From positions 1 to 10,446 of the forward strand of contig JPPB01000287.1 of NCBI GenBank assembly GCA_001483205.1: a DNA stretch of 10,446 nucleotides. The letters are read 5' to 3'. Source of the stretch: an alpha proteobacterium 3107. Lineage in GTDB: Bacteria > Pseudomonadota > Alphaproteobacteria > Rhodobacterales > Rhodobacteraceae. The notes under the pieces are model-generated. The model was not told where the DNA came from, ran no database searches, and was given only the letters and a program-made list of their open reading frames with translations. Positions 1 through 10,446 of the stretch are shown in pieces (position 1 is the first letter of the stretch; each line of letters begins with the position of its first letter). A program made the position numbers and the translations under genes.

Positions 1-67
1 TGCCAAGGTCTTTTCAGCGAAAAAGCTGCGGCAGAGCTGTGATCAGATTATCATACTTTGGCCATAT
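1..67. repeat. Left copy of a 61-bp dispersed segment
   Basis: Positions 7-67 match 1897-1957 at a constant offset of 1890, with three A/G differences (at 20, 35 and 45). The segment begins with GGTCTTTT, the outer edge of the terminal motif shared by the other repeats here, so the window probably opens at the right end of one more element. On the minus strand both copies carry a short open frame that stops with TGA directly beside this edge. The segment may be a relic of a larger element, but its function is unknown. Confidence 0.7.
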
Positions 68-172
68 GGGCTCAGCCGGGCAGCGCCTGCCGGGGGGCAG
101 GCAGGCGCTGCTTGGGCAGCAAGCGCCGGGCGGACGGTTTGGCCACTGACGCGCTATTATACAGAGGTCTTT
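62..172. repeat. Dispersed hairpin-rich repeat, copy E1
   Basis: The right end, ATTATACAGAGGTCTTT, is the family's terminal motif. The inside holds AGCGCCTGCC, a run of six G, then CAGGCAGGCGCT, which folds into a 10-bp hairpin. Positions 119-171 are a perfect 53-bp inverted match to 2042-2094 in copy E2b. The usual GCCCGG hairpin is replaced by a different one around GCTGC-TTGG-GCAGC (107-120). The left end lacks a good terminal motif and runs into the 61-bp segment. It lies upstream of the alpha/beta hydrolase gene and codes for nothing I can recognise. Confidence 0.8.
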
Positions 173-408
173 TCCGAGAGCTGCGTTCCTGTCCCTGCCC
201 GGTCGCAAGACCGGGCCGCGCCGCCTCACCCCTCAATGAGGTGGGGTGGCGCGCCCCCCTTGCAAGCCGGACGCGGCCCTTCGGACTGTGCGCGCACCTT
301 TACCGGCAAATCCCCCTGCCCCCTGCCGCCCGCATTTGCATATTGGGCACGGGGGCGCTACAGGTCTGAACCGGGCACAACAGCAAACCCAAGGGGGCGC
401 ACACCGCC
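173..408. other. Intergenic stretch with decayed repeat modules
   Basis: I see no gene in this stretch. Positions 197-216 (GCCCGGTCGCAAGACCGGGC) are identical to 4785-4804 inside copy E4 and form an 8-bp hairpin with a GCAA loop. A second inverted repeat follows at about 222-249 (CCTCACCCC/GGGGTGG region). The rest is GC-rich without recognisable content. The several open frames here have unnatural composition and overlap one another, so I treat them as chance. No clear promoter for the downstream hydrolase is visible. Confidence 0.5.
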
Positions 409-1167
409 ATGCCGGACTTCATCACAACCGATCAGGGCCGCCGGATCGCCTTTGCCCGCACCGACGGCAAACAGCCGGGCGTGGTCTTTCTGGGCGGTTT
501 CGCCTCGGACATGACCGGAACCAAAGCCACCCATCTTGAGGCATGGGCGCGCGCCCGTTCCCGCGCCTTTCTGCGCTTTGACTATTCCGGGCACGGGCAG
601 TCCTCGGGCGATTTCACCGACGGCTGCATCGGGGACTGGGCCGAAGACGCGATGGCGGCAATCAGGGCGCTGACCCGGGGGCCGCAGGTGCTGGTCGGCT
701 CTTCAATGGGCGGCTGGATTGCGCTTCTGGTCGCCCGCGCCATGCCCGCGCACGTCGCCGGGCTGGTGGGGATCGCCGCCGCCCCCGATTTCACCGAAGA
801 CGACATGTGGGCCGGGTTTGATGCCGCACAAAGGGCTGATCTGGCGGAAAAGGGGCGGGTCGAACTGCCGTCGGACTATTCGGACGCACCCTATGTCATC
901 ACCCGCAGGCTGATCGAGGATGGCCGCAAGCGGCTGGTCCTGCGCGACCCTCTGCGGCTGGCCTGCCCTGTCCGGTTCCTGCAAGGCTCGGCAGATGCGG
1001 ATGTGGACATGTCGGTGGCACTGCGGCTTTTTGATCATGCCGAGGGCGATGACATCCGCCTGACGCTGGTCAGGGGGGCGGATCACCGCTTTTCGTCGCC
1101 CGGCTGTCTGGCGCTGATCGGGGCCGCGATTGAGGATGTGTCGGGCGCGCGGAAGGACAAGCCATGA
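409..1167 (+). CDS. Alpha/beta hydrolase (ABHD10-like serine esterase/thioesterase)
   Basis: This is a 252-residue single-domain alpha/beta-fold hydrolase, probably cytoplasmic because no signal peptide is visible. The oxyanion loop is GGF at 29-31 and a DYSGHGQS segment lies at 59-66. The nucleophile elbow is GSSMG at 97-101, giving Ser99. The likely acid is Asp198 (or Asp196) in the SADADVD segment, and the likely base is His226 in GADHRF. The order and spacing resemble ABHD10/acyl-protein-thioesterase-like proteins; the substrate cannot be read from the sequence. The ATG at 409 is the only sensible start, with a distant AAGGGGG as a weak ribosome site. Its stop overlaps the start of the VOC gene (ATGA), so the two are probably one operon. 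A 2-hydroxymuconate-hydrolase-like role is possible but nothing nearby supports it. Confidence 0.88.
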   Translation: MPDFITTDQGRRIAFARTDGKQPGVVFLGGFASDMTGTKATHLEAWARARSRAFLRFDYSGHGQSSGDFTDGCIGDWAEDAMAAIRALTRGPQVLVGSSMGGWIALLVARAMPAHVAGLVGIAAAPDFTEDDMWAGFDAAQRADLAEKGRVELPSDYSDAPYVITRRLIEDGRKRLVLRDPLRLACPVRFLQGSADADVDMSVALRLFDHAEGDDIRLTLVRGADHRFSSPGCLALIGAAIEDVSGARKDKP

Positions 1168-1625
1168 AAACAGGAGCCGTTATGGAACAGCGTGTCAGTC
1201 TGATCACCCTGGGGGTTGCCGACATGGACCGGTCGCGGGCGTTTTATATGGCGCTTGGCTGGGAACCGGTCGAAAGCCCGGACGGGGTTGTCGCCTTTGA
1301 CCTGATCGGGCAGACGCTCGGCCTGTATCCGAAGGCGATGCTGGCCGAAGAGCTGGGGATTGACGCCGCCGGGATCGGCGGGTTCTCGGGGATCACCCTT
1401 GCGCATAATCTGCGGTCAAAGGCAGAGGTCGCGCCGTTTCTGCGTCGGGCCGCCGAGGCCGGGGCAAGGATCATCAAACCGGCGCAGGATGTGTTCTGGG
1501 GCGGGTATCATGGCTATTTCGCTGACCCGGACGGGCATATGTGGGAAATCGCCTGGAACCCGTTTTCGCCGCTTGGGGCTGATGGGGCGTTTCAGTGGAA
1601 CGGGGTGGCTGAAGGCGGGGGGTGA
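1164..1625 (+). CDS. VOC-family (glyoxalase/bleomycin-resistance fold) protein
   Basis: A 153-residue protein with the opening typical of the vicinal oxygen chelate superfamily (ITLGVADMDRSRAFYMALGW, 14-33) and its closing signature DPDGHMWEIAWNP (121-133), where Glu128 is the expected metal ligand. The first-strand position that is often a metal-binding His is not His here (LITLGV), so classical glyoxalase I activity is unlikely; the substrate is unknown. Two starts are plausible: ATG at 1164, overlapping the hydrolase stop as ATGA and preceded by GGAAGGA, and ATG at 1182, preceded by AGGAG at 1172-1176. The second removes six residues and fits where homologues usually begin. I keep 1164 because the overlap suggests translational coupling. 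No terminator is seen before the repeats downstream. Confidence 0.87.
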   Translation: MKTGAVMEQRVSLITLGVADMDRSRAFYMALGWEPVESPDGVVAFDLIGQTLGLYPKAMLAEELGIDAAGIGGFSGITLAHNLRSKAEVAPFLRRAAEAGARIIKPAQDVFWGGYHGYFADPDGHMWEIAWNPFSPLGADGAFQWNGVAEGGG

Positions 1626-1686
1626 CGGCGCGCCTTTGCAGGGCTGACCCGTTTCGGCTATATGTGGCCGGGAAGGGGGATCCAGC

Positions 1687-1776
1687 ATTGATCATATTCT
1701 GAAGCACCAAGACGCCGTGCTTGCTTGCATGGGGCAATTCATGGGGAATGTGGAACAGGCACTGCAAAATCAGTGA
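1687..1776 (+). other. Doubtful 29-codon open frame ending beside a repeat
   Basis: A short frame ending NVEQALQNQ followed by TGA at 1774-1776 has protein-like composition with spaced hydrophobic residues (DHILKHQDAVLACMGQFM). There is a GGAAGGGGG ribosome-site-like stretch just upstream, but the codon at the matching distance is ATT, not ATG. Repeat E2a starts three bases after the stop. It may be the remains of a larger gene, a tiny gene with a rare start, or chance. I cannot assign it to a family. Confidence 0.15.
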
Positions 1777-1779
1777 CAG

Positions 1780-1904
1780 AAGACCTCTGCATAAGGCTGT
1801 ATCGCCCCCCGAATGTCCCGCCGGGCCGGGCGCTGCCCTCACCGGTCTTGTGAAACCCATCACCCATGTCTCTCCCGGACCCGGACATCATGCAGGGGTC
1901 TTTT
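1780..1904. repeat. Dispersed repeat, copy E2a
   Basis: The 125-bp copy runs from AAGACCTCTGCATAAGG to CATGCAGGGGTCTTTT, which are inverted versions of the same terminal motif. The left arm (GGCTGTATCGCCCCC, then ATGTCCCGCC) is the one also found at the left end of copy E6 (6986-7013). The right half is not shared with other copies in this window. It is followed directly by the 61-bp segment at 1897-1957. No coding sequence is seen. Confidence 0.72.
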
Positions 1905-1957
1905 CAGCGGAAAAGCTGCGGCAGGGCTGTGATCGGATTATCATACTTTGGCCATAT
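1897..1957. repeat. Right copy of the 61-bp dispersed segment
   Basis: This is a direct copy of 7-67 with three differences. It shares GGTCTTTT with the right end of E2a, so the element end and this segment are fused. The minus strand holds the frame WPKYDNPITALPQLFR followed by TGA, against WPKYDNLITALPQLFR in the other copy. Two of the three base differences are silent in that frame. About 84 bp of sequence with no visible function follow before copy E2b. Confidence 0.7.
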
Positions 1958-2041
1958 TGTGTTTTGCCAGAGTGGCGACTGCGCCGGACCAACCGCACCG
2001 GGTTAACCGTTTCCGGCCACGCCGCCCTGCCAATCCCCATC

Positions 2042-2160
2042 AAGACCTCTGTATAATAGCGCGTCAGTGGCCAAACCGTCCGCCCGGCGCTTGCGCCGGG
2101 CAGCGCCTGCCTGCCCCCCGGCAGGCGGCTGCCCGGCTGAGCTATTATGCAGGGGCCTTT
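2042..2160. repeat. Dispersed hairpin-rich repeat, copy E2b
   Basis: This compact 119-bp copy has both ends intact: AAGACCTCTGTATAATAGC on the left and GCTATTATGCAGGGGCCTTT on the right. It contains the perfect hairpin GCCCGGCG-CTTG-CGCCGGGC (2082-2101) and the C-run hairpin around 2102-2127. Positions 2042-2094 are a 53-bp perfect inverted match to E1. Its right end is two bases from the stop codon of the ureidoglycine aminohydrolase gene, so it may lie in that gene's 3' untranslated RNA. No poly-U intrinsic terminator is present. Confidence 0.85.
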
Positions 2161-2162
2161 CA

Positions 2163-2987
2163 TCAGACGCCGAGCCTCATATGCCGGTTCACATCCTTAT
2201 AGAGCAGATAGCGGAACGGCCCCGGCCCGCCCGCATAACACGCCTGCGGGCAAAAGGCGCGCAGCCACATGTAATCCCCGGCCTCTACCTCTACCCAATC
2301 CCGGTTCAGCCGGTAAACCGCCTTGCCCTCAAGCACATAGAGACCGTGCTCCATCACATGGGTTTCAAGGAACGGGATAACGCCGCCCGGCTGAAAGGTG
2401 ACGATGGTGATGTGCATATCATGGCGCAGGTCGTCGGGATCGACAAACCGTGTCGTCGCCCAGACACCGCCGGTATCCGGCATCGGCTCCGGCGGGGTCG
2501 CCTGATCGCTGGTAAAGATCGGATCGGGCGCGCCAAAGCCCTCCACCGCCTCATAAGCCTTGCGAATCCAGTGAAAGCCCGCAACCGCGCCGGACCGGTT
2601 GCGCAGGCTCCAGCCACTGCCCGGCGGCAGATAGGCAAAGCCGCCCGCGCCAAGGGTGTGGGTCTTGCCCGCCAGTGACACCTCAACCTGCCCCGCTGTC
2701 ACGAACAGAGCACCCTCTGCGCCCGGATCAGGCTCTGCCCGGTCACTGCCGCCGCCGGGGGCAACCTCGACGATATAGTGGGAAAATGTCTCGGCAAAGC
2801 CGGTCATCGGGCGGGCAATCACCCAGACCCGCGTGTCGGTCCAGAACGGCAGGCGGCTGGTCACGATGTCGCGCATGGTGCCGCGCGGGATCACCGCATA
2901 GGCCCCGGTGAACACGGCCCGGTCGCTCAGAAGCTGAGTCTGCGGGGGCAGGCCGCCCGCCGGAGTGTGGTAATGTGGTTTCATCAT
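2163..2987 (-). CDS. allE: (S)-ureidoglycine aminohydrolase, bicupin
   Basis: A 274-residue protein with two cupin domains (roughly 60-145 and 185-270). It hydrolyses (S)-ureidoglycine, the product of allantoate amidohydrolase, to (S)-ureidoglycolate and ammonia in purine breakdown, and is expected in the cytoplasm. The C-terminal cupin carries the probable metal set Glu208, His210, His214 and Gln248 (ETHVMEHG and FCPQACYAGG). Their spacing is the same as I recall for the Arabidopsis enzyme's Mn ligands. Starts at 2987 and 2984 (ATGATG) are equally possible; a GAGGGG stretch lies just upstream. It stands alone here: no allantoinase, allantoate amidohydrolase or ureidoglycolate lyase is in the window. 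A palindrome over the likely promoter suggests repressor control. The family call is confident from the overall sequence. Confidence 0.93.
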   Translation of the reverse strand: MMKPHYHTPAGGLPPQTQLLSDRAVFTGAYAVIPRGTMRDIVTSRLPFWTDTRVWVIARPMTGFAETFSHYIVEVAPGGGSDRAEPDPGAEGALFVTAGQVEVSLAGKTHTLGAGGFAYLPPGSGWSLRNRSGAVAGFHWIRKAYEAVEGFGAPDPIFTSDQATPPEPMPDTGGVWATTRFVDPDDLRHDMHITIVTFQPGGVIPFLETHVMEHGLYVLEGKAVYRLNRDWVEVEAGDYMWLRAFCPQACYAGGPGPFRYLLYKDVNRHMRLGV

Positions 2988-3014
2988 GCCCCTCGTCTGG
3001 CCGGTGACAGAGTT

Positions 3015-3049
3015 CGGTTTATCAAACCGGTGGCGGCGTCAAAATCCAA
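3015..3049 (-). promoter_or_regulatory. Likely promoter and operator of the ureidoglycine aminohydrolase gene
   Basis: On the minus strand, TTGGAT (3049-3044) and TTTGAT (3026-3021) are separated by 17 bp, a plausible but imperfect sigma-70 promoter. The palindrome CGGTTTATCAAACCG (3015-3029; 6-bp arms, 3-bp centre) covers the -10 box, 28 bases upstream of the ATG. That position is typical of a repressor operator. The sequence loosely resembles GntR-family half-sites, but the regulator is unknown. Confidence 0.4.
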
Positions 3050-3099
3050 CCCCCGGGCGCGGTATGCCGGACAGAAACAGATGATTGCTTTTTTTGAAG

Positions 3100-3310
3100 A
3101 AGACCTCTGTATGATGGCTTAGCCGGGCAGCCGCCTGCCTGGGCGGGCGCTTTTCGCGATATTTCACATTGGCAGTGGTCATGCCATAAAGTCCATACGT
3201 TGCAACAGGTTGAGACACTTAAAGCGCCTGCCGGGGGGCAGGCAGGCGCTGCCCGGCGTTCCGCCGGGCGGGCTGTTTGGCCGCCGATGTGCCAATATGC
3301 AGAGACCTTT
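3100..3310. repeat. Dispersed repeat, long form, copy E3
   Basis: The 211-bp copy begins AAGACCTCTGTATGATGGCTTAGCC and ends CCAATATGCAGAGACCTTT. It is homologous along its length to E5 and, inverted, to half of E6. The order is: the GCCGGGCAGCCGCCTGCCTG arm, a less GC-rich core with GTTGCAACAGGTTGAG, the G6 hairpin (3223-3250), the perfect hairpin GCCCGGCG-TTC-CGCCGGGC (3251-3269), then the GGCCGCCGATGTGCCAATATG arm. TTTGAAG lies at both borders (3093-3099 and 3308-3314) and may be a target duplication. A TTGACA box (3316-3321) follows at once and may serve ugd, although no good -10 box is seen 16-18 bp further on. Confidence 0.88.
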
Positions 3311-3382
3311 GAAGATTGACAGGGCGGCCCGCATCCGCGCATGTCCGAAGCGCACAGAGGGTTTTCGGCTCAGGGGGCATTG

Positions 3383-4711
3383 ATGAAAATAGCGATGATC
3401 GGCACCGGATATGTCGGGCTTGTCTCCGGCGTGTGCTTTTCGGATTTCGGCCATGATGTCGTCTGCGTGGACAAGGATGCGGCAAAGATCGCGCGGCTGG
3501 AGGCCGGGGACATTCCGATTTTTGAGCCGGGCCTTGAGGGGCTGATTGCCCGGAATGTCGGGGCCGGGCGGCTGACCTTCACCCGCGATCTGGCGGGGGC
3601 GGTTGCGGCGGCAGAGGTCGTCTTTATCGCGGTCGGCACACCTGCGCGGCGCGGCGACGGCCACGCCGACCTGCGCTTTGTCTACGCCGCCGCCGGGGAA
3701 ATTGCCCGCGCGCTGTCGGGCTATACGGTGGTGGTGACCAAATCAACCGTGCCCGTCGGGACCAACCGCGAGGTCGGGCGCATCATCCGCGCCGCCAACC
3801 CCGCCGCCGATTTCGACATGGCCTCGAACCCCGAGTTCCTGCGCGAGGGCGTGGCGATCGACGATTTCATGCACCCGGACCGGGTGATCATCGGCGTCGA
3901 ATCAGAGCGCGCGGCAGAGGTCATGGCCCGGATTTACCACCCGCTTGTCCTGCGCGACCGTCCGATTATCACCACCGACCCGGAATCCGCCGAAATGATC
4001 AAATACGCCGCCAACGGGTTTCTTGCGGCCAGAATCACCTTCATCAACGAAATTGCCGCCCTGTGCGAGCGGGTGGGGGCCGATGTCGGGCAGGTCGCCC
4101 GCGGCATGGGGTTTGATCGCCGGATCGGGAGCGGGTTCCTGCGCGCAGGCCCCGGCTATGGCGGGTCATGCTTTCCGAAGGACACAAGGGCGCTGGCGCG
4201 GATCGGGCAGGAACACGCGGTGCCGATGCAGATCACTGAGGCGGTGATTGAGGTCAATGAGGGGGTCAAGCGCCGCATGACCGGCAAGATCACGGATGTC
4301 TGCGGCGGGTCGGTGAACGGCAGGACCATCGCGGTTCTGGGCGTCACCTTCAAGCCCGACACTGACGACATGCGCGATGCGCCTGCCCTGACCATCGTGC
4401 CCGCGCTTGTCGGTGGCGGGGCGGTGGTTCGGGTTGTCGATCCGCAGGGGCGGCGCGAGGGCGAGGCGCTGTTGCCCGGTGTTGGCTGGTATGAGGACGC
4501 TTATGCGGCGGCAGAGGGGGCGGACGCGGTGGTCATCCTGACCGAGTGGGCCGCGTTTCGGGCGCTTGATCTGGGGCGTCTGGCCGGTGTGATGGCGCAT
4601 CCGGCGATGGCCGATCTGCGCAATGTCTATTCGGTAGATCAGGCGCGCCGGGCCGGGTTCGCGGTTTATGCCGCCGTCGGGCGCGCGGGCTATGGCCTGC
4701 CCGAGACCTGA
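3383..4711 (+). CDS. ugd: UDP-glucose 6-dehydrogenase
   Basis: A 442-residue cytoplasmic enzyme that oxidises UDP-glucose to UDP-glucuronate with two NAD+, supplying acidic sugars for exopolysaccharide, capsule or lipid decoration. The N-terminal Rossmann motif is GTGYVGL (7-13). The active-site set is Lys207 and Asn211 (EMIKYAANGFLA), catalytic Cys263 and Asp267 (GYGGSCFPKDT). Each is three positions later than the numbering I recall for the Streptococcus pyogenes enzyme. The C-terminal UDP-binding domain includes GVTFKPDTDDMRDAP (320-334). The frame is open from ATG 3341, but MKIAMIGTGYVGL at 3383 is the usual family start and has a GGGGG stretch upstream; the earlier start would add 14 unrelated residues. 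No polysaccharide genes are adjacent, so its end product is unknown. Confidence 0.95.
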   Translation: MKIAMIGTGYVGLVSGVCFSDFGHDVVCVDKDAAKIARLEAGDIPIFEPGLEGLIARNVGAGRLTFTRDLAGAVAAAEVVFIAVGTPARRGDGHADLRFVYAAAGEIARALSGYTVVVTKSTVPVGTNREVGRIIRAANPAADFDMASNPEFLREGVAIDDFMHPDRVIIGVESERAAEVMARIYHPLVLRDRPIITTDPESAEMIKYAANGFLAARITFINEIAALCERVGADVGQVARGMGFDRRIGSGFLRAGPGYGGSCFPKDTRALARIGQEHAVPMQITEAVIEVNEGVKRRMTGKITDVCGGSVNGRTIAVLGVTFKPDTDDMRDAPALTIVPALVGGGAVVRVVDPQGRREGEALLPGVGWYEDAYAAAEGADAVVILTEWAAFRALDLGRLAGVMAHPAMADLRNVYSVDQARRAGFAVYAAVGRAGYGLPET

Positions 4712-4743
4712 GTGCGGGGGCAGCTTCAGGCGGAATGGTGGCA

Positions 4744-4903
4744 AAAGACCTTTGTATTTTGGAGTATCGGCCGCCAAACCGTCCGCCCGGTCGCAAGACC
4801 GGGCAGCGCCCGGCCCCCCACCCGCGGCCAGGACGGGGGCGGTAATGCCCCGGTGGAGCGGCCAAACCGTCTGCCCTGCCCAAGCCAATATGCAGAGGTC
4901 TTT
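4744..4903. repeat. Dispersed repeat, copy E4, abutting tRNA-Tyr
   Basis: The 160-bp copy begins AAAGACCTTTGTATTTTGG and ends CCAATATGCAGAGGTCTTT. Both flanks carry the GGCC(G)CCAAACCGTC or GGCCAAACCGTC arm in opposite orientation, so the whole copy is a large imperfect palindrome. The hairpin GCCCGGTC-GCAA-GACCGGGC (4785-4804) is identical to the one at 197-216. The last base of the right end is also the final A of the tRNA-Tyr CCA (minus strand). The copy therefore forms the immediate 3' trailer of the tRNA transcript and separates it from the convergent ugd gene. Confidence 0.85.
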
Positions 4904-4986
4904 GGTGGGCGACCCTGGAATCGAACCAGGCGTGCGTCTCCGCGAGGGAGTTACAGTCCCCTGCCACACCTTGCGGCCTGTCGCCC
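4903..4986 (-). tRNA. tRNA-Tyr (anticodon GTA)
   Basis: The 84-base class II tRNA read on the minus strand has acceptor stem GGGCGAC/GTCGCCC, discriminator A and an encoded CCA. The anticodon stem-loop is GGGGA-CTGTAAC-TCCCT with anticodon GTA. A long variable arm follows (CGCGGAGACGCACG), then the T arm CCTGG-TTCGATT-CCAGG. All stems pair. It is divergent from rlmB and convergent with ugd, and has its own promoter. Confidence 0.97.
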
Positions 4987-4996
4987 GACGCGAGCG

Positions 4997-5025
4997 GAAA
5001 TAGACAAGCCCGCCCCGTGCGTCAA
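4997..5025 (-). promoter_or_regulatory. Sigma-70-type promoter of tRNA-Tyr
   Basis: On the minus strand TTGACG (5025-5020), a 17-bp spacer and TATTTC (5002-4997) lie just upstream of the tRNA 5' end at 4986. Transcription would start near 4990, leaving a leader of a few bases. The GC-rich stretch between the -10 box and the tRNA (CGCTCGCGTC) resembles the discriminators of stringently controlled tRNA promoters. Confidence 0.6.
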
Positions 5026-5060
5026 CCGGAAATTCCTTGCGCCTGCCGCCCCAGGCGCGC

Positions 5061-5888
5061 ATGATCCGCCCCGCCTTCACCCAGGGACCAACCGCCGTGC
5101 AGAAATCCGGGCGTCTGACCGCAAATGACACCGCAAATGACCGGGCCGGGCGCGCCCCCGCCCGCCGGAGCGTCTGGCTTTTCGGCCTTCATGCGGTGCG
5201 CGACGCGCTGTCCAACCCGGCGCGCGACAAACGACGCCTGATCGTGACCCGGAACGCTGCCGACAAACTGGCCGAGGCCATCGCCGCCGCGGGCATTGCC
5301 CCCGAAATCGCCGATCCGCGCCGGTTTCCGGCCCCGCTCGACCCGGCATCGGTGCATCAGGGCGCGGCGCTTGAGGCCGGGCCGCTTGACTGGGGCCGCC
5401 CGGAAGAGCGCTGCGCCACCGGGGGCGGCCCCGCCTGTGTTGTGTTGCTCGATCGGGTGACCGACCCGCACAATGTCGGGGCGATCCTGCGCTCGGCAGA
5501 GGTGTTCGGTGCCCGTGCCGTCATCGCGCCCGCCCGTCATTCGGCCCCCGAAACCGGCGCGCTGGCCAAGGCCGCCTCGGGCGCGCTGGAGCGCCAGCCG
5601 TATCTGAGGGTCCGCAACCTGGCCGAGGCCATCCGCAGCCTTCAGGCCATGGGGTATTTTGTGCTGGGGCTGGAGGGCGAGGCCGAACGGACCATCGCGC
5701 AGGCGCTGCAAGGGCGGGCCGACGGCCCGGTTGCGCTGGCGCTCGGGGCTGAGGGGGCGGGGCTGAGGGCGCTCACCCGCGAGCTGTGCGACGGGCTGGC
5801 GCGGATTGCGCCTGCGGGCGGGTTCGGTTCGCTCAATGTTTCCAACGCGGCGGCTGTGGCGCTTTACAGCCTGACGGCGGGGCGGTGA
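5061..5888 (+). CDS. rlmB: 23S rRNA (guanosine-2'-O-)-methyltransferase RlmB
   Basis: A SpoU/TrmH-family methyltransferase of 275 residues from the chosen start. It is expected to 2'-O-methylate the 23S rRNA guanosine equivalent to E. coli G2251 using S-adenosylmethionine. The N-terminal substrate-binding domain starts at WLFGLHAVRDAL (39-50). The knotted catalytic domain shows motif 1 (DRVTDPHNVGAILRSAEVFG, 131-150; Asn138, Arg144), motif 2 (LGAEGAGL, 228-235) and motif 3 (SLNVSNAAAV, 257-266). The start is uncertain. TTG 5037 lies close to the tRNA-Tyr promoter; ATG 5061 has only a weak AGG; GTG 5097 has AGGGA nine bases upstream and is a strong alternative. The N-terminal 35 or so residues are probably disordered. 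A paralogous TrmH-like target is possible but less likely, because the substrate-binding domain matches RlmB. Confidence 0.92.
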   Translation: MIRPAFTQGPTAVQKSGRLTANDTANDRAGRAPARRSVWLFGLHAVRDALSNPARDKRRLIVTRNAADKLAEAIAAAGIAPEIADPRRFPAPLDPASVHQGAALEAGPLDWGRPEERCATGGGPACVVLLDRVTDPHNVGAILRSAEVFGARAVIAPARHSAPETGALAKAASGALERQPYLRVRNLAEAIRSLQAMGYFVLGLEGEAERTIAQALQGRADGPVALALGAEGAGLRALTRELCDGLARIAPAGGFGSLNVSNAAAVALYSLTAGR

Positions 5889-5967
5889 GGGCAGGGTGCG
5901 CCGCTGGTCCTGTGGGGGCGGCGGACCTGATTGCGGATGACCCGAAAGGCCGTGTCCTGCCCGCTCT

Positions 5968-6181
5968 AAGACCTCTGCATATTGACTGAGCCGGGCAGCC
6001 GCCTGCCTGGGCGGGCGCTTTTTCCGACAGTCCGCATTGGCGACGCCCTTGCCATAAAGCCCATATGTTGCAACAGATTGAGGCGTCTGTAAGCGCCTGC
6101 CGGGGGGGGCAGGCAGGCGCTGCCCGGCGTTCCGCCGGGCGGGACGGGGTGGCCGCCGATGTGCCAATATGCAGAGGTGTC
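5968..6181. repeat. Dispersed repeat, long form, copy E5
   Basis: A near full-length homologue of E3 in the same orientation: AAGACCTCTGCATATTGACTGAGCCGG on the left and GTGCCAATATGCAGAGGTGTC on the right. It contains the core with GTTGCAACAGATTGAG, the same GCCCGGCG-TTC-CGCCGGGC hairpin (6122-6140), and a G run of eight instead of six. It differs from E3 mainly in the core, while the arms and hairpins are well conserved. It separates rlmB from the YHS-domain gene. The 79 bp between the rlmB stop and this copy show no terminator. Confidence 0.88.
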
Positions 6182-6310
6182 TATACGCGCCGACACCCAA
6201 GGAAAAAGATGAGGGCCACGCCCGCCCCGACTGATCACAGTTGCGTCAGGTGTCTTTTCATTTCCGCCCCAGCCCTCATGTTGTCAGAACCAACGGAAAG
6301 GAGAGACAAA

Positions 6311-6769
6311 ATGATCCCACGCCGCGCCTTCCTGGCCATTGCCGCCGTTTCTGCCTCTGCCGGGCTGCTGGCTGTCGCCGTCCGCGCCGAAGAGCCGCAG
6401 GTCTATGCAACGGATGGCGTCGCCATCAACGGATACGACCCGGTCGCCTATTTCACCGAAGGCGCGCCGGTCAAGGGGTCCGAACAGATCACCCACGAGT
6501 GGAACGGCGCGACATGGCAATTCGCCTCTGCCGAAAACCGCGATGCTTTTGCCGCCGACCCGGACGCCCACGCGCCGCAATATGGCGGCTATTGCGCCTA
6601 TGCCGTGTCCAGAGGTTACATCGCCACCACCGATCCCGACGCCTGGACGGTGCATGACGGCAGGCTTTACCTGAACTACAGCCTGCGGGTGCGCCGCCAG
6701 TGGGAGCGGGACATTCCGGGCAATATCGAAAAGGGAGACGCCAACTGGCCCGGCGTTCTGGACGGATAA
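6311..6769 (+). CDS. Exported YHS-domain protein
   Basis: A 152-residue protein with an N-terminal signal peptide: MIPRRAFL, a hydrophobic stretch at 7-24, and probable cleavage after VRA at 24-26. The RRAFL sequence suggests Tat export, though Sec is possible. The mature part has the YHS signature GYDPVAYFTEG (41-51), ASAENRDAFAADP (72-84) and YGGYCAYAVSRGY (91-103) with the conserved Cys95. YHS domains are thought to bind metal or act in redox proteins; the exact role of this family is not established. The frame is open from further upstream inside repeat E5, but ATG 6311 is preceded by AAAGGAGAG and gives the signal peptide. The 5' leader holds an inverted ATGAGGGC/GCCCTCAT pair about 55 bp apart, of unknown meaning. 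The gene appears to be a single unit. Confidence 0.9.
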   Translation: MIPRRAFLAIAAVSASAGLLAVAVRAEEPQVYATDGVAINGYDPVAYFTEGAPVKGSEQITHEWNGATWQFASAENRDAFAADPDAHAPQYGGYCAYAVSRGYIATTDPDAWTVHDGRLYLNYSLRVRRQWERDIPGNIEKGDANWPGVLDG

Positions 6770-6803
6770 CGGGGCGATCACAACTATATTATGTCATGCC
6801 CCC

Positions 6804-6832
6804 TTCAAAAGCCGGGATATGATGTCTATATT
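6804..6832 (+). promoter_or_regulatory. Possible sigma-70 promoter for a small RNA
   Basis: TTCAAA (6804-6809) and TATATT (6827-6832) are separated by exactly 17 bp. Four of six and five of six bases match the consensus. This is in AT-richer sequence just after the YHS gene, and transcription would begin near 6840. The call rests on motif match alone. Confidence 0.35.
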
Positions 6833-6839
6833 GCCAGAC

Positions 6840-6926
6840 AGGAGCGCGAAACAGGAACTATCGTGCTTCTCTTCACTGTCCCTCGTTCCACGACTGCGCC
6901 CGGAAAATTTACCCGGGCGCTTTTTT
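6840..6926 (+). ncRNA. Candidate small RNA, about 87 nt
   Basis: The interval lies between a promoter-like pair and a strong intrinsic terminator. A GGAAC (6854-6858)/GTTCC (6885-6889) stem would present a loop rich in pyrimidines (CTTCTCTTC), like the anti-ribosome-site loops of bacterial regulatory RNAs. The terminator hairpin with its U tract completes a typical sRNA shape. It matches no family I can name. The alternative is that this is simply the 3' untranslated end of the YHS mRNA, possibly processed. The open frame at 6791-6973 runs through the terminator and is not credible. Confidence 0.3.
6896..6926 (+). terminator. Rho-independent terminator after the YHS gene
   Basis: GCGCCCGG (6896-6903) pairs perfectly with CCGGGCGC (6913-6920) over a nine-base loop and is followed by six T (6921-6926). 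It ends the YHS transcript or the candidate small RNA. Confidence 0.85.
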
Positions 6927-6971
6927 GTGTGCTGAGGGGTGGTAGAAGTGCGGGCAGAGGATGCTTTTTCT

Positions 6972-7236
6972 AAGACCTTTGCATAAGGCTGTATCGCCCC
7001 CAAAATGTCCCGCCCGGCGGCACGCCGGGCAGCGCCTTTGGGCTCCGCCCGTTCGGCCCTGAAACGGTCCACCGGACCGTTTCCAAGGCGGGCCTCACCC
7101 CCCGGCAGGCGCTTTGAACGTCTCAACCCTTTGCAACGCTTGGACTTTACGGGAAAGCCATCTCCAATTTGGAATGTCGCGAAAAGCGCCCGCCCAGGCA
7201 GGCGGCTGCCCGGCTGAGCTATTATGCAGAGGTTTT
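6972..7236. repeat. Chimeric dispersed repeat, copy E6
   Basis: At 265 bp this is the longest copy. It starts AAGACCTTTGCATAAGG with the E2a-type arm and continues into the hairpin GCCCGGCG-GCA-CGCCGGGC (7012-7030). A module shared with E7 follows and ends in the 10-bp hairpin GAAACGGTCC-ACC-GGACCGTTTC (7061-7083). From about 7100 on it is an inverted copy of the left half of E3/E5, including the core with TTGCAA, and ends GCTATTATGCAGAGGTTTT. The make-up suggests recombination between copies. It lies 30 bp beyond the tRNA-Ala 3' end. No frame within it is conserved between copies. Confidence 0.85.
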
Positions 7237-7266
7237 AGGCATATGTCCCGAAAAGCGACGGCGGGG

Positions 7267-7342
<76 letters not shown>

Positions 7343-7418
7343 GAAGCGCGGGCAGTAAACGGACGCCCGCCCTACGCGCATGGCCGCTGTCTAGGCGAGG
7401 GCGCAGGGCACTTCAAGC

Positions 7419-7466
7419 GAAAAATCCCCTGTCCGGCCCGGCGGACGGGCGGCCTGACAGGGGCGA
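7419..7466 (-). terminator. Rho-independent terminator on the minus strand
   Basis: Read on the minus strand, CCCCTGTC (7463-7456) pairs with GACAGGGG (7433-7426) around a GC-rich inner loop, followed by ATTTTT. No T tract exists on the plus side, so it acts leftward. It would end the DUF2007/methyltransferase/DUF465 transcript, or an unrecognised RNA from 7470-7919, just before the tRNA-Ala promoter region. Confidence 0.75.
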
Positions 7467-7469
7467 TTC

Positions 7470-7919
7470 GGCCCGAATGACCGGCTATTGATCATGGGTC
7501 GCCACCATCCGGCCCGGTTTCCGCGCATTGTTTCCCCGACGCGAACGGCAAGGCGGGAACGGTTTGGCCCCGGGCAGGGATGTGGCAGACATGTGCCTGA
7601 CCGGTATCAGGGCCAAGCGGTCCGGGGGGCCGTTGCCCGCCTCAGCAGCGTTGCCTCTGAGCGGTCTGGCCCGGTTTGTTCTGATACGCCGCCGCAGGCC
7701 GGTGACCTGAGTCCCTCCCCCGGGAGCCGCGCCGGGTGCTTTTCCGCAGAGATCGGGAGCGCCCGGCGCGGTTTTGGCGTGTTCCGGCATTCCGTCGGGC
7801 GGCATCCGGCCTTCAGGCTGAATTGTGTCGCGCCCAAAACCAAATCCCCCGCCCGGCGACCCCGGGCGAATCAACATGTGGGCGCACTGCCCGCCCCGGC
7901 CTACCGCCGGTCGGCTGCT
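7470..7919. other. 450-bp stretch with no recognised gene
   Basis: Frames are open on both strands (7488-7940 plus; 7485-7877 minus). The minus frame would give a basic, Pro/Gly/Arg-rich 130-residue product that stops 19 bases before the terminator. However, it has no ribosome site, uses ATA, AGA and AGG codons that are rare in the neighbouring genes, and has weak third-position GC bias. I looked for conserved motifs of RNase P RNA, tmRNA and SRP RNA and found none. The DNA is GC-rich with several hairpins. It may be a long 3' untranslated region, a structured RNA or a decayed gene. Confidence 0.4.
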
Positions 7920-8087
7920 TCAGGCGCGGGTCAGGCGTGAGATTTCTTCCTTGAGCCTGAGCTTCTGCTTTTTCAGGGCCGAGATTTCAAGGTCATCGAT
8001 TCCGGGGTGTTTCCGGGCCTCCTCGACCTGCTGCGACAGACTTTCATGCTTTTTACGAAGCTCCTGCACATGGGCGCTCACGCTCAT
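7920..8087 (-). CDS. DUF465 (YdcH-family) small coiled-coil protein
   Basis: A 55-residue charged helical protein beginning MSVSAHVQELRKKHESLSQQ and ending EEISRLTRA. It contains the family pattern of a short N-terminal helix, a turn at HPGIDDLEIS (27-36), and a second helix with LKKQKLRLKEEI (38-49). It is predicted to be a cytoplasmic helical hairpin; the family's function is unknown. The start is certain: AGGAGG (8099-8094) lies six bases before the ATG. It follows the methyltransferase on the same strand after a 121-bp gap holding a direct repeat that could be a control site. The length is normal for the family. Confidence 0.88.
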   Translation of the reverse strand: MSVSAHVQELRKKHESLSQQVEEARKHPGIDDLEISALKKQKLRLKEEISRLTRA

Positions 8088-8152
8088 TCCTGACCTCCTT
8101 AAATTGAGTTTTCATCCTGCCAGTCCAGCACAGAATCCGCCCGCTGTCACGC

Positions 8153-8180
8153 GATTGTGCAAAAAATCGGCGGATTGTGC
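8153..8180. promoter_or_regulatory. Direct repeat GATTGTGC with 20-bp period
   Basis: GATTGTGCAAAA begins at 8153 and GATTGTGCGAAG at 8173, exactly 20 bp apart, so both face the same side of the helix. They lie upstream of the DUF465 start on the minus strand and downstream of the methyltransferase stop. They could be a protein-binding site, but no regulator can be named. Confidence 0.3.
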
Positions 8181-8208
8181 GAAGGATTGCCGATCAGCAC
8201 CAAGGCCG

Positions 8209-8976
8209 TCAGCCGGGAAAGTCCAGCCCGTGGCCCCCGCGCAGGATGCCGCTGAGCTGCTCGGTATAGCTGTCGCCGTCCCGGTCGTGATGCGACCCTT
8301 TGTGCATAATCAGCGGGAAATGCAGGCGAAACGCTGCCCGTCCCCCCTTGCGCGCCCGGACCAGCGCCAGATGCGGGGCGCGGCCCGTGCGCGCCGACAC
8401 CGGCAGAACCTCCGCACTGCCCAAACCGGTCGTGTCAATCGCAGTCAGAAGCTCGGGCAGGCGGCGCATGTCCTGAATGACGCTGAGGCACCCCCTGGGG
8501 GACAAACGCTTTGCAGCAACCCCGATCCAGTCGGTCAGCGCCGTTGCCCCCGCCCGCGCCGTATCGCGGCCCGGCTCTTTGGCCGGGGGGCCGGTTTCGC
8601 GCCGGAAATAGGGCGGGTTGGCCATCACATGATCAAAACCCCGACCGCGAAGGGCCTCGGGCAGCGCCCGCAGATCGGCGACATGAACCGCCATCGCGCA
8701 GCCGTTCCGGGCCGCATTCCGCCGGGCGAGCTCCGCATAATCCGCCTGCACCTCTACCCCGGACAGCTCAAGGCCGGGCACACGGGCGGCAAGGCACAGA
8801 CAGGCAACCCCCGCCCCGCAGCCCAGTTCCAGCACCGACTGCCCCGGATGCGCCGGAACCGACGCCGCCAGCAGCACCGGATCAACCCCGGCGCGGTAGC
8901 CTTTCGCCGGTTGTGCGACACTCAGTCGCCCGCCGAGAAACCGGTCATGGGTCAGGGCGTTTTCAGGGAAACTCAC
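8209..8976 (-). CDS. tRNA1(Val) A37 N6-methyltransferase (TrmN6-like)
   Basis: A 255-residue class I S-adenosylmethionine-dependent methyltransferase of the TrmN6/YfiC group. Motif I is LELGCGAGVA (49-58), the adenosine-contacting acidic residue is probably Glu75 (SGVEV), and the catalytic NPPY is at 120-123, as in N6-adenine methyltransferases. The N-terminal GYRAGVDPVLLAASVP (26-41) is characteristic of the group. The E. coli member methylates A37 of tRNA1(Val); the exact target here is inferred. The start is GTG 8976, overlapping the DUF2007 stop as GTGA and preceded by GGAAGG, which indicates translational coupling. The frame is open further upstream, but that part is out of family and overlaps DUF2007. 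Confidence 0.88.
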   Translation of the reverse strand: MSFPENALTHDRFLGGRLSVAQPAKGYRAGVDPVLLAASVPAHPGQSVLELGCGAGVACLCLAARVPGLELSGVEVQADYAELARRNAARNGCAMAVHVADLRALPEALRGRGFDHVMANPPYFRRETGPPAKEPGRDTARAGATALTDWIGVAAKRLSPRGCLSVIQDMRRLPELLTAIDTTGLGSAEVLPVSARTGRAPHLALVRARKGGRAAFRLHFPLIMHKGSHHDRDGDSYTEQLSGILRGGHGLDFPG

Positions 8977-9191
8977 AACCCTTCCGCCTCGATCCCGTTG
9001 TCCTTCAGAATAGCGCGCGCCCGGAACAGATCGCCGGTTCTGACCATCAGGCGGCGCGGCAGAATACCGATGGAGCCTTCGAGAACACTCATGTTTACGT
9101 CCATCGGAAAGCAGTCTATACCTTCGCCCCGGAGCAGGGCCGAGGCATAGGCGATGAGCGTAGGGTCGTTTGTCCGCAGAAGCTCTTTCAT
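8973..9191 (-). CDS. DUF2007 small protein
   Basis: A 72-residue protein starting MKELLRTNDPTLIAYASALL, with the DUF2007 pattern of an N-terminal strand, a helix, then GEGIDCFPMDVNMSVLEGSI (22-41) and LMVRTGDLFRARAIL (48-62). The fold resembles a small ferredoxin-like domain sometimes annotated as a putative signal-transducing protein; its role is unknown. ATG 9191 fits the family start but has no ribosome site; the bases before it are TTATGTCCCGGT. It may be read from a leaderless mRNA, or an ATG at 9211 may be used. It overlaps the methyltransferase start by four bases and is divergent from the polyprenyl synthase. Confidence 0.85.
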   Translation of the reverse strand: MKELLRTNDPTLIAYASALLRGEGIDCFPMDVNMSVLEGSIGILPRRLMVRTGDLFRARAILKDNGIEAEGL

Positions 9192-9257
9192 ACCGGGACA
9201 TAAAAGCATGGCGACAGGTTTGTCGAGACCGGACGCCACCAAAGGCATGGCGCTGTG

Positions 9258-10256
9258 ATGAGTCTGGATGAGACCGCCGTCAAACCCCATGATGCTCTGG
9301 CCGCCTGTCTGGCGGACGAGATGGAGGCCGTGAACCGGCTGATCCGGGAGCGCATGGCATCGCGCCACGCGCCGCGCATTCCGCAGGTCACCGCCCATCT
9401 GGTCGATGCCGGTGGCAAGCGGCTGCGCCCGATGCTGACACTGGCGGCGGCAAAGCTGTGCGGCTATCAGGGGCCGTATCATGTCCACCTCGCGGCGACG
9501 GTCGAGTTCATCCATACGGCGACGCTCTTGCATGACGATGTGGTCGATGAAAGCGCCCGGCGGCGGGGCAGGCCGACCGCCAACCTGTTGTGGAATAACA
9601 AGTCGAGCGTGCTGGTCGGGGATTACCTGTTTTCCCGGTCCTTTCAGTTGATGGTTGAGGCCGGGTCGATCCGGGTTTTGGGCATTCTTGCCGATGCGTC
9701 GGCGACCATCGCCGAGGGCGAGGTTCTGCAACTGGGCGTCGCCCATGACATCCGCACCGATGAGGGCGTCTATATGCGGGTGATCCGGGGCAAGACTGCG
9801 GCCCTGTTTGCCGCCGCCGCCGAGGTGGGGGGGGTGATCGCGGGCGCGCCCGAGGATCAGGTCAGGGCGCTTCATGCCTATGGCGACGCGCTGGGGATCA
9901 GCTTTCAGATTGTTGATGACCTGCTGGATTACTGGGGCACGGGGGCGACCGGCAAGAACACCGGCGACGATTTTCGCGAGCGCAAGCTGACGCTGCCGGT
10001 GATCAAGGCGCTGACCGGGGCCGGGGACGAGGAACGGGCGTTCTGGACCCGCGTGATCGGGCAGGGGGTGCAGCGGGAGGGCGACCTGGAGCAGGCGCTG
10101 GAATTGCTGAACCGGCGCGGCGCGATGGAGCAGACCCGAAACGAAGCACTTGCCTGGGCGGACAGGGCGAGGGCCGCGCTGGAGGCTCTGCCGGATGATC
10201 CGGTGCGGGACATGTTGCGGGACATGGCGGGTTACGTCACCGAGCGGATTGTGTAG
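9258..10256 (+). CDS. ispB: Long-chain polyprenyl diphosphate synthase (probably decaprenyl)
   Basis: A 332-residue trans-isoprenyl diphosphate synthase. It adds isopentenyl diphosphate units to make the C40-C50 side chain of ubiquinone; in this bacterial group the product is usually decaprenyl (UQ-10), so ddsA would also be a fitting name. Visible motifs are GGKRLRP (52-58), the first Asp-rich motif DDVVD (93-97), GKT (178-180) and the second Asp-rich motif DDLLD (220-224). The residue five before the first Asp motif is Ala88 in HTATLLHDD, as in long-chain synthases. GTG 9255 is directly followed by ATG 9258; the ATG is preferred. The 66-bp gap to divergent DUF2007 must hold both promoters. 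A 16-bp palindrome (CTTATCCGCGGATAAG, 10270-10285) follows the stop without a T tract. Confidence 0.94.
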   Translation: MSLDETAVKPHDALAACLADEMEAVNRLIRERMASRHAPRIPQVTAHLVDAGGKRLRPMLTLAAAKLCGYQGPYHVHLAATVEFIHTATLLHDDVVDESARRRGRPTANLLWNNKSSVLVGDYLFSRSFQLMVEAGSIRVLGILADASATIAEGEVLQLGVAHDIRTDEGVYMRVIRGKTAALFAAAAEVGGVIAGAPEDQVRALHAYGDALGISFQIVDDLLDYWGTGATGKNTGDDFRERKLTLPVIKALTGAGDEERAFWTRVIGQGVQREGDLEQALELLNRRGAMEQTRNEALAWADRARAALEALPDDPVRDMLRDMAGYVTERIV

Positions 10257-10323
10257 GGCAGGGGGGCGGCTTATCCGCGGATAAGGTCAAGGCTTCTGAC
10301 ATATTATGGCCTGAGCACTGTAA

Positions 10324-10446
10324 AATGACCTCTGCATATTGGTGGGTCGGCAACCAACCCGTCCGCCCGGCGGAACGCCGGGCAGCGCCCGCCATAGGGC
10401 TCCGCCCGTTCGGCCCTGAAACGGTCCACCGGACCGTTTCCGAGAC
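10324..10446. repeat. Dispersed repeat, copy E7, cut by window end
   Basis: It starts AATGACCTCTGCATATTGG, then carries the ACCCGTCCGCCCGG arm, the hairpin GCCCGGCG-GAA-CGCCGGGC (10365-10383) and the shared module GGGCTCCGCCCGTTCGGCCC. It ends in the hairpin GAAACGGTCC-ACC-GGACCGTTTC (10418-10440), identical to that of E6. The right end lies outside the window. It sits 68 bp after the polyprenyl synthase stop. Confidence 0.82.

Follow-up and report, generated by a model that had tools for sequence, protein, structure and literature searches.

The window analysed here, a stretch of 10,446 nucleotides from alpha proteobacterium 3107 of the Rhodobacteraceae (assembly GCA_001483205.1, contig JPPB01000287.1, positions 1 to 10,446), is dotted with copies of a repeat bounded by inverted ends. 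The best explanation, and in our judgement a very probable one, is that the repeats are a family of miniature inverted-repeat transposable elements (MITEs) moved by a transposase of the IS5 family, and that the surviving copies are mostly intergenic. Mobility is well supported, because the repeats have inverted ends, 5-bp duplications, a nested insertion, an empty site and, in relatives, an insertion sequence (IS) with the same kind of ends. The repeats are also short, non-coding and present in many copies, the length of the duplication is fixed and insertions are polymorphic, which together with the end-matching IS of relatives are the marks of a MITE. An earlier sequence-only reading had offered a mobile family or a conserved structured element as alternatives; both were partly true, in that the evidence just listed speaks for mobility and the interior of the main class of copies is folded.

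The end motif AAGACCTCTGCATA matches the window 15 times at up to 3 mismatches (shuffled sequence gave 0.30 on average and never more than 2), and 14 of the 15 matches are element ends. The remaining match, at 5493, lies within a gene and looks like chance. These matches and the pairing of inverted ends bear out the terminal motif first proposed, and the eight copies proposed with it are all real, each within a few bases of its given place. No copy overlaps the eight window genes called by a codon model, which misses at least one small gene (by eye), and seven of the proteins were scanned against Pfam; the proposal that the repeats are non-coding thus held. As a single family the repeats share their ends, but they are not a uniform element, since interiors differ among copies. 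The 58 paired copies mostly fall into three length groups, 69-89, 111-131 and 203-214 bp, apart from one copy each of 158, 177, 181, 224 and 265 bp; the overall range is 69-265 bp.

The host genome (G000) is a 2.17-Mb draft. Across it the end motif, at up to 2 mismatches, occurs 227 + 233 = 460 times, whereas the reversed control occurs 2 + 4 = 6 times. If two ends per element and the 159-bp mean length of the 58 pairs hold, the family would number very roughly 230 elements and make up 1.7% of the genome. The copies are therefore dispersed and not local duplications. Two 61-bp window segments, 7-67 and 1897-1957, that are 95% identical and both start at a MITE right end would suit duplication of one locus; as an origin of the family such duplication is refuted by the genome-wide count of ends and by the amplification of the same end in two other genera.

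Intergenic position was assessed in the window plus 40 further stretches, 431 kb in all, which were picked for holding copies and are not a random sample. Although 80% of this sequence is predicted to be coding by the codon model, 67 of 68 exact end matches are intergenic and one is in a gene; at up to 2 mismatches, 155 ends are intergenic and 6 are in genes. The bias toward gaps that the sequence-only reading proposed to look for is thus evident. By the initial pairing, from which three right ends of the 58 differ in the final one, the 50 convergent gaps contain 20 non-redundant pairs, the 48 divergent gaps 9 and the 144 tandem gaps 22, with 6 more at stretch edges. One further pair, mostly within a predicted gene, has poor ends (2 + 3 mismatches) and looks spurious. 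Per base, pairs are about twice as frequent in convergent as in divergent gaps.

Exact 5-bp duplications flank 10 of the 58 pairs (expectation 0.32; no more than 4 in any of 2000 shuffles), and the flanks of 16 pairs agree in at least four of five bases (1.7 expected, at most 7 in shuffles). No other duplication length stands out among the paired copies, and at the 5-bp site T is the commonest first base and A the commonest last. One copy (L068:2872-3082) is nested within a second one and flanked on each side by ATAAA; when the insert and one ATAAA are removed, the host copy becomes continuous, and its two matches of 82 and 42 bits become a single match of 135 bits. The relatives searched include no second genome of the window's own genus, and the search for empty sites drew on the genus of another relative, G061. 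One clean orthologous empty site was found there: the 207-bp copy L220:7302-7508 of G061 is absent from its congener G422, which has a single TTTGA where G061 has TTTCA/TTTGA. Another G061 copy (L216:5050-5171, 122 bp, flanked by TATTC at either end) seems, from match coordinates, to correspond to a longer orthologue in G422, and short copies may thus arise when the loop is lost. A 651-bp difference between the two genomes near these sites is something else.

The same results bear on the idea that the repeat does not move at all and is a structured RNA or terminator passed on by vertical descent. The interior module described below is structured and found across the host family, copies per gap are commonest between convergent genes, and the G061 copy with an orthologue in G422 would suit such an element. 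The nested insertion, the orthologous empty site and the target duplications of the whole element would not, and the idea, which we consider very improbable, fits, if at all, the free-standing module only.

The candidate partner of the MITEs is an IS5-family IS. In a survey of the end at no more than one mismatch, covering one genome per genus and 394 genomes of the family, it was amplified in three: G000 with 319 matches, G173 with 114 and G061 with 71, the next highest genome having 8. In G080, at contig ends, this end precedes the start of a transposase gene, and in G070 it follows the end of one. The G070 gene encodes a 242-aa C-terminal part of an IS5-family transposase (NF033581 at 152.1 bits, cut-off 140; PF01609), and among the best 120 of 733 homologues most are 335 aa long. 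Both ends were present at the gene in 14 of 32 related loci of named genomes. Seven of these 14 have exact 5-bp duplications (GGCAA, TTACA, TCTGA, TCAAA, TTCGT, AGAAT and TGAAA), the first four all from one species; of the other seven, one agrees in four of five bases and six less well. The named loci that carry the partner transposase mostly belong to the same family or its order. IS of this kind in Sedimentitalea nanhaiensis, Roseovarius and Pararhodobacter resemble the MITEs in having ends of approximately AAGACCTCTGCATAA or AAGACGTCTGCGTAA; they encode a transposase, whereas the MITEs encode nothing. The transposase gene bounded by the same ends that the sequence-only reading had suggested seeking thus exists in relatives, but G000 yielded fragments only.

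These fragments account for three matches to the transposase query, at two places. The first (L081:2060-1962) retains the last 33 residues at 73% identity (E 1e-7), is separated by about 90 bp from an end with 3 mismatches at 1855 and adjoins another IS5-type fragment. The second (L142:1596-1501, on contig C72 of G000; remnant and end together 1404-1596) covers residues 303-334 of 335 at 62.5% identity, with an end about 100 bp away whose first 48 bp score 22.4 bits (E 2.5e-7) against the MITE profile. From its sequence, L142 is possibly a relic of the direct parent IS of the MITEs.

Several findings weigh against derivation of the MITEs from such an IS and against their mobility. Eight of the IS of relatives have no more than the end motif in common with the MITEs, and neither their right ends nor the end at the L081 fossil match the MITE profile. 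Beyond the end motif the IS-MITE link is one fossil, L142, which may be a chance meeting of MITE and transposase remnants. An intact partner IS was not found in G000 with three Pfam transposase families and one protein query, in an assembly of 337 contigs from which a multi-copy IS is easily lost. No exact duplication flanks 48 of the 58 pairs, which exceeds what decay would easily explain, the ends being well kept; recombination between copies is a guess at the cause. A second G061 copy (L220:13912-14131) is also missing in G422, where its place is taken by other bases, and the site is not clean.

A search of G000 for rve found one sub-threshold piece only, and eight transposases in a plasmid collection are all below 60% identity. 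A 21-base form of the end, sought as an exact match, was absent from genome and viral contig collections, a weak result as it has only 16 sites in the 431 kb of G000. End pairs 300-4500 bp apart with at least four of five flanking bases equal gave three cases, of which two are compound copies; the third (L031:7817-10114) overlaps two predicted genes and has no IS5 transposase match. In G173 there are 163 transposase matches, many of those listed with internal stops, and 223 end motifs at up to 2 mismatches; by its sequence this genome is crowded with IS5 copies in decay.

The fold of main-class copies is a single long hairpin with branches; one copy folded as RNA gave a z of -6.4 and another folded as DNA a z of -3.4. 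Conservation within this class is uneven. In a set of 28 pairs of 195-235 bp, picked by ends and length only (the main-class copies of L061 and L063 are missing from it), both arms of the interior module are at least 90% identical to the consensus in 26 pairs. Mean identity to the consensus is 98 and 96% for the arms, 81% for the loop and 78% for the left subterminal region; the 93% of the ends is flattered, as ends were used for selection. Like this set, alignment A1 goes back to the copies as first paired; in its 31 sequences, picked mostly by profile score, mean pairwise identity is 99.5 and 97.2% for the arms, 85% for the ends, 84% for the first hairpin, 75% for the loop and 66% for the left subterminal region. 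In G061 and G192 there are four MITE copies, 207-221 bp long, whose parts follow the same order and which score 56.5-72.8 bits along the full length of the profile; at least three genera, those of G000, G061 and G192, have this vehicle-plus-cargo design.

The module also occurs free-standing in relatives, next to genes. A model, R1, was built from six such modules; its E-values are rough, and in each genome only some candidates were scored. At E 1e-3, R1 has matches in 55 of 120 genera sampled from the family, a count that includes the six model sources and G000 itself; at E 1e-4 it has matches in 41 of the 120. In a class-wide sample of 190 genomes it matches two at E 1e-4, both in the family, and a plasmid collection gave one short match, in Tritonibacter. 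In a model-fitted alignment of 31 matches, two-sided changes occur in 9 of 26 pairs (37 cells, against 6.0 in shuffles). A second fold, predicted by RNAalifold, pairs the first arm with the second arm instead of the last, and in a plain MAFFT alignment of 30 sequences 7 of its 17 pairs covary (21 cells, against 3.1 in shuffles). Both modelled folds covary and are in part mutually exclusive, and the fold is not settled. The sequence of the first hairpin can change wholly while the hairpin is kept. Twenty module copies from two genomes have no long shared flanks (by eye), although four copies of G105 have a few bases in common. Of 30 module loci, 21 lie in tandem gaps, 6 in convergent gaps and 1 in a divergent gap, with 1 in a predicted gene and 1 at an edge.

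It is quite possible, without being the likelier case, that the module is an undescribed, selected element of the family at gene 3' ends, acting as RNA or cruciform DNA, which an IS5-type MITE captured and dispersed and which selection retained as its cargo as the MITE ends deteriorated. The arms appear to have been under selection since insertion, which is a good reading but an unproved one, and the most likely role would be that of a 3'-end hairpin, like the repetitive extragenic palindromic (REP) sequences, that makes insertions harmless or useful. If this is true, hundreds of ready-made 3'-end hairpins were seeded by a MITE vehicle. MITEs are usually viewed as decaying passengers with conserved ends; in the present case conservation is higher in the cargo than at the ends, and the folded element is kept independently by close to half of the family's sampled genera. 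This makes it possible to test whether a functional non-coding structure can be carried across a genome by mobile elements.

The main rival to selection holds that the arms were conserved by gene conversion or hairpin-templated repair and that this is an ordinary decaying MITE. Hundreds of copies share one genome, the arms are long GC-rich inverted repeats, and nested and adjoining copies occur, all of which would favour conversion. Conversion should also homogenise the loop, however, and neither the loop nor the left subterminal region approaches the identity of the arms; moreover, other genera retain the same kind of module by itself, with few copies in each genome and with compensatory changes. 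We regard the rival as doubtful, though it deserves to be taken seriously.

The palindromic, GC-rich interior, the strong folding and the intergenic position likewise recall REP sequences and bacterial interspersed mosaic elements (BIMEs), which could have been spread by a REP-associated tyrosine transposase (RAYT). The free-standing module resembles REP and BIME in being palindromic, GC-rich and next to gene ends, but it is about 80 nt long with several helices. A search of draft genome G000 for the Y1 transposase (PF01797) gave 0 matches, and 5-bp duplications with inverted ends fit a DDE transposase; spread by a RAYT is accordingly a most improbable origin.

The MITE family moved by an IS5-type transposase would have arisen and persisted as follows. 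The transposase of an IS with much the same ends of about 14 bp would recognise the MITE ends and insert the element at 5-bp staggered cuts, and insertions in genes would be purged. The left end of the MITE may derive from the right end of an L142-like IS, and in the main 211-bp class IS-type ends would hold the folded module that is found family-wide. As no intact IS was found in G000, transposition there has probably come largely to a halt.

Other MITEs of bacteria, among them Correia of Neisseria, Chunjie of Geobacter and the enterobacterial repetitive intergenic consensus (ERIC), are short elements with inverted ends, tens to hundreds of copies and size variants (PMC10969869). The MITEs of the window have the same traits but, unlike these three, have an interior that is found on its own as well throughout the host family. 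The ends of Correia, Chunjie and ERIC are not known to match those described here. Miniature elements derived from Tn3 (TIMEs) make 5-bp duplications, a length they share with these MITEs, whose partner is an IS5-family IS; Tn3 ends are about 38 bp long and begin differently. A length of 5 bp is not known to be among the duplication lengths of the named IS5 subgroups. The literature searched held no report of miniature inverted-repeat intergenic elements in Rhodobacteraceae and none of palindromic intergenic repeats for Roseobacter, and a search for repetitive extragenic palindromic sequences in Rhodobacteraceae returned unrelated work only. The motif GACCTCTGCATA was not found there, and the matches listed for the pieces AAGACCTCTGC and GCAGAGGTCTT are unrelated by title. 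The search of Rfam that had been suggested gave no match to the repeats at gathering scores (the window yields one tRNA only), and a scan of 18 of the 30 module loci gave one unrelated serC leader only. The module is thus a candidate structured element for the host family that has no Rfam match.

Table 1. Repeat copies, target duplications and module stretches in the window (strand is given where assigned)
Feature	Positions	Strand	Details
Probable right end of another copy, truncated by window start	1..12		TGCCAAGGTCTT vs TGCAGAGGTCTT, 2 mismatches in the 12 bases present, by eye
MITE copy, left end degenerate	62..171		right end 158-171 TATACAGAGGTCTT, 1 mismatch; 53-bp exact inverted match to 2042-2094
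MITE copy, 123 bp	1780..1902		end mismatches 0 + 2; flanks GACAG/TTCAG, no clear duplication
MITE copy, 118 bp	2042..2159		end mismatches 1 + 2; flanks CCATC/TCATC, 4/5 equal
5-bp target duplication TGAAG, left copy	3095..3099		exact match to 3310-3314
MITE copy, main 211-bp class, oriented as alignment A1	3100..3309	-	end mismatches 2 + 2; nhmmer 219.6 bits, whole profile (copy is in profile)
Module-model stretch within copy 3100-3309	3196..3269	-	model R1, 36.9 bits, E 1.1e-4
5-bp target duplication TGAAG, right copy	3310..3314		exact match to 3095-3099
MITE copy, 158 bp, mosaic interior	4745..4902		end mismatches 3 + 0; directly adjoins tRNA-Tyr
MITE copy, main 211-bp class, 214 bp	5968..6181	-	end mismatches 0 + 2; nhmmer 203.2 bits (copy is in profile)
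Module-model stretch within copy 5968-6181	6064..6140	-	model R1, 40.4 bits, E 3e-5
MITE copy, 265 bp, main class with extra segment of ~55 bp	6972..7236	+	end mismatches 1 + 1; nhmmer 169.6 bits
MITE copy cut by window end	10325..10446	+	left end, 1 mismatch

Some smaller features of the copies deserve mention. Two MITE copies lie near tRNA genes called by ARAGORN, one ending at 4902 with 0 bases before tRNA-Tyr (4903-4986) and the other ending at 7236 with 30 bases before tRNA-Ala at 7267. A 55-bp segment starting GGGCTCCGCCCGTTCGGCCC at 7033-7087 is repeated at 10390-10444 and is common to two MITE copies; it is also present, reversed, in L034:12169-12392 (by eye), as a second interchangeable interior. 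Further repeat modules, for example CCTGACGCCCGGATTTTGAGT, stand directly behind or near the same end at L077:4055-4146, L033:18282 and L070:1073 (by eye), which suggests still other interiors. At 197-280 the window holds a variant of the module with the same order of hairpins and different stems (GGGCCGCGCC..GCGGCCC; R1 39.3 bits), and a similar variant is seen by eye at about L033:18320-18410.

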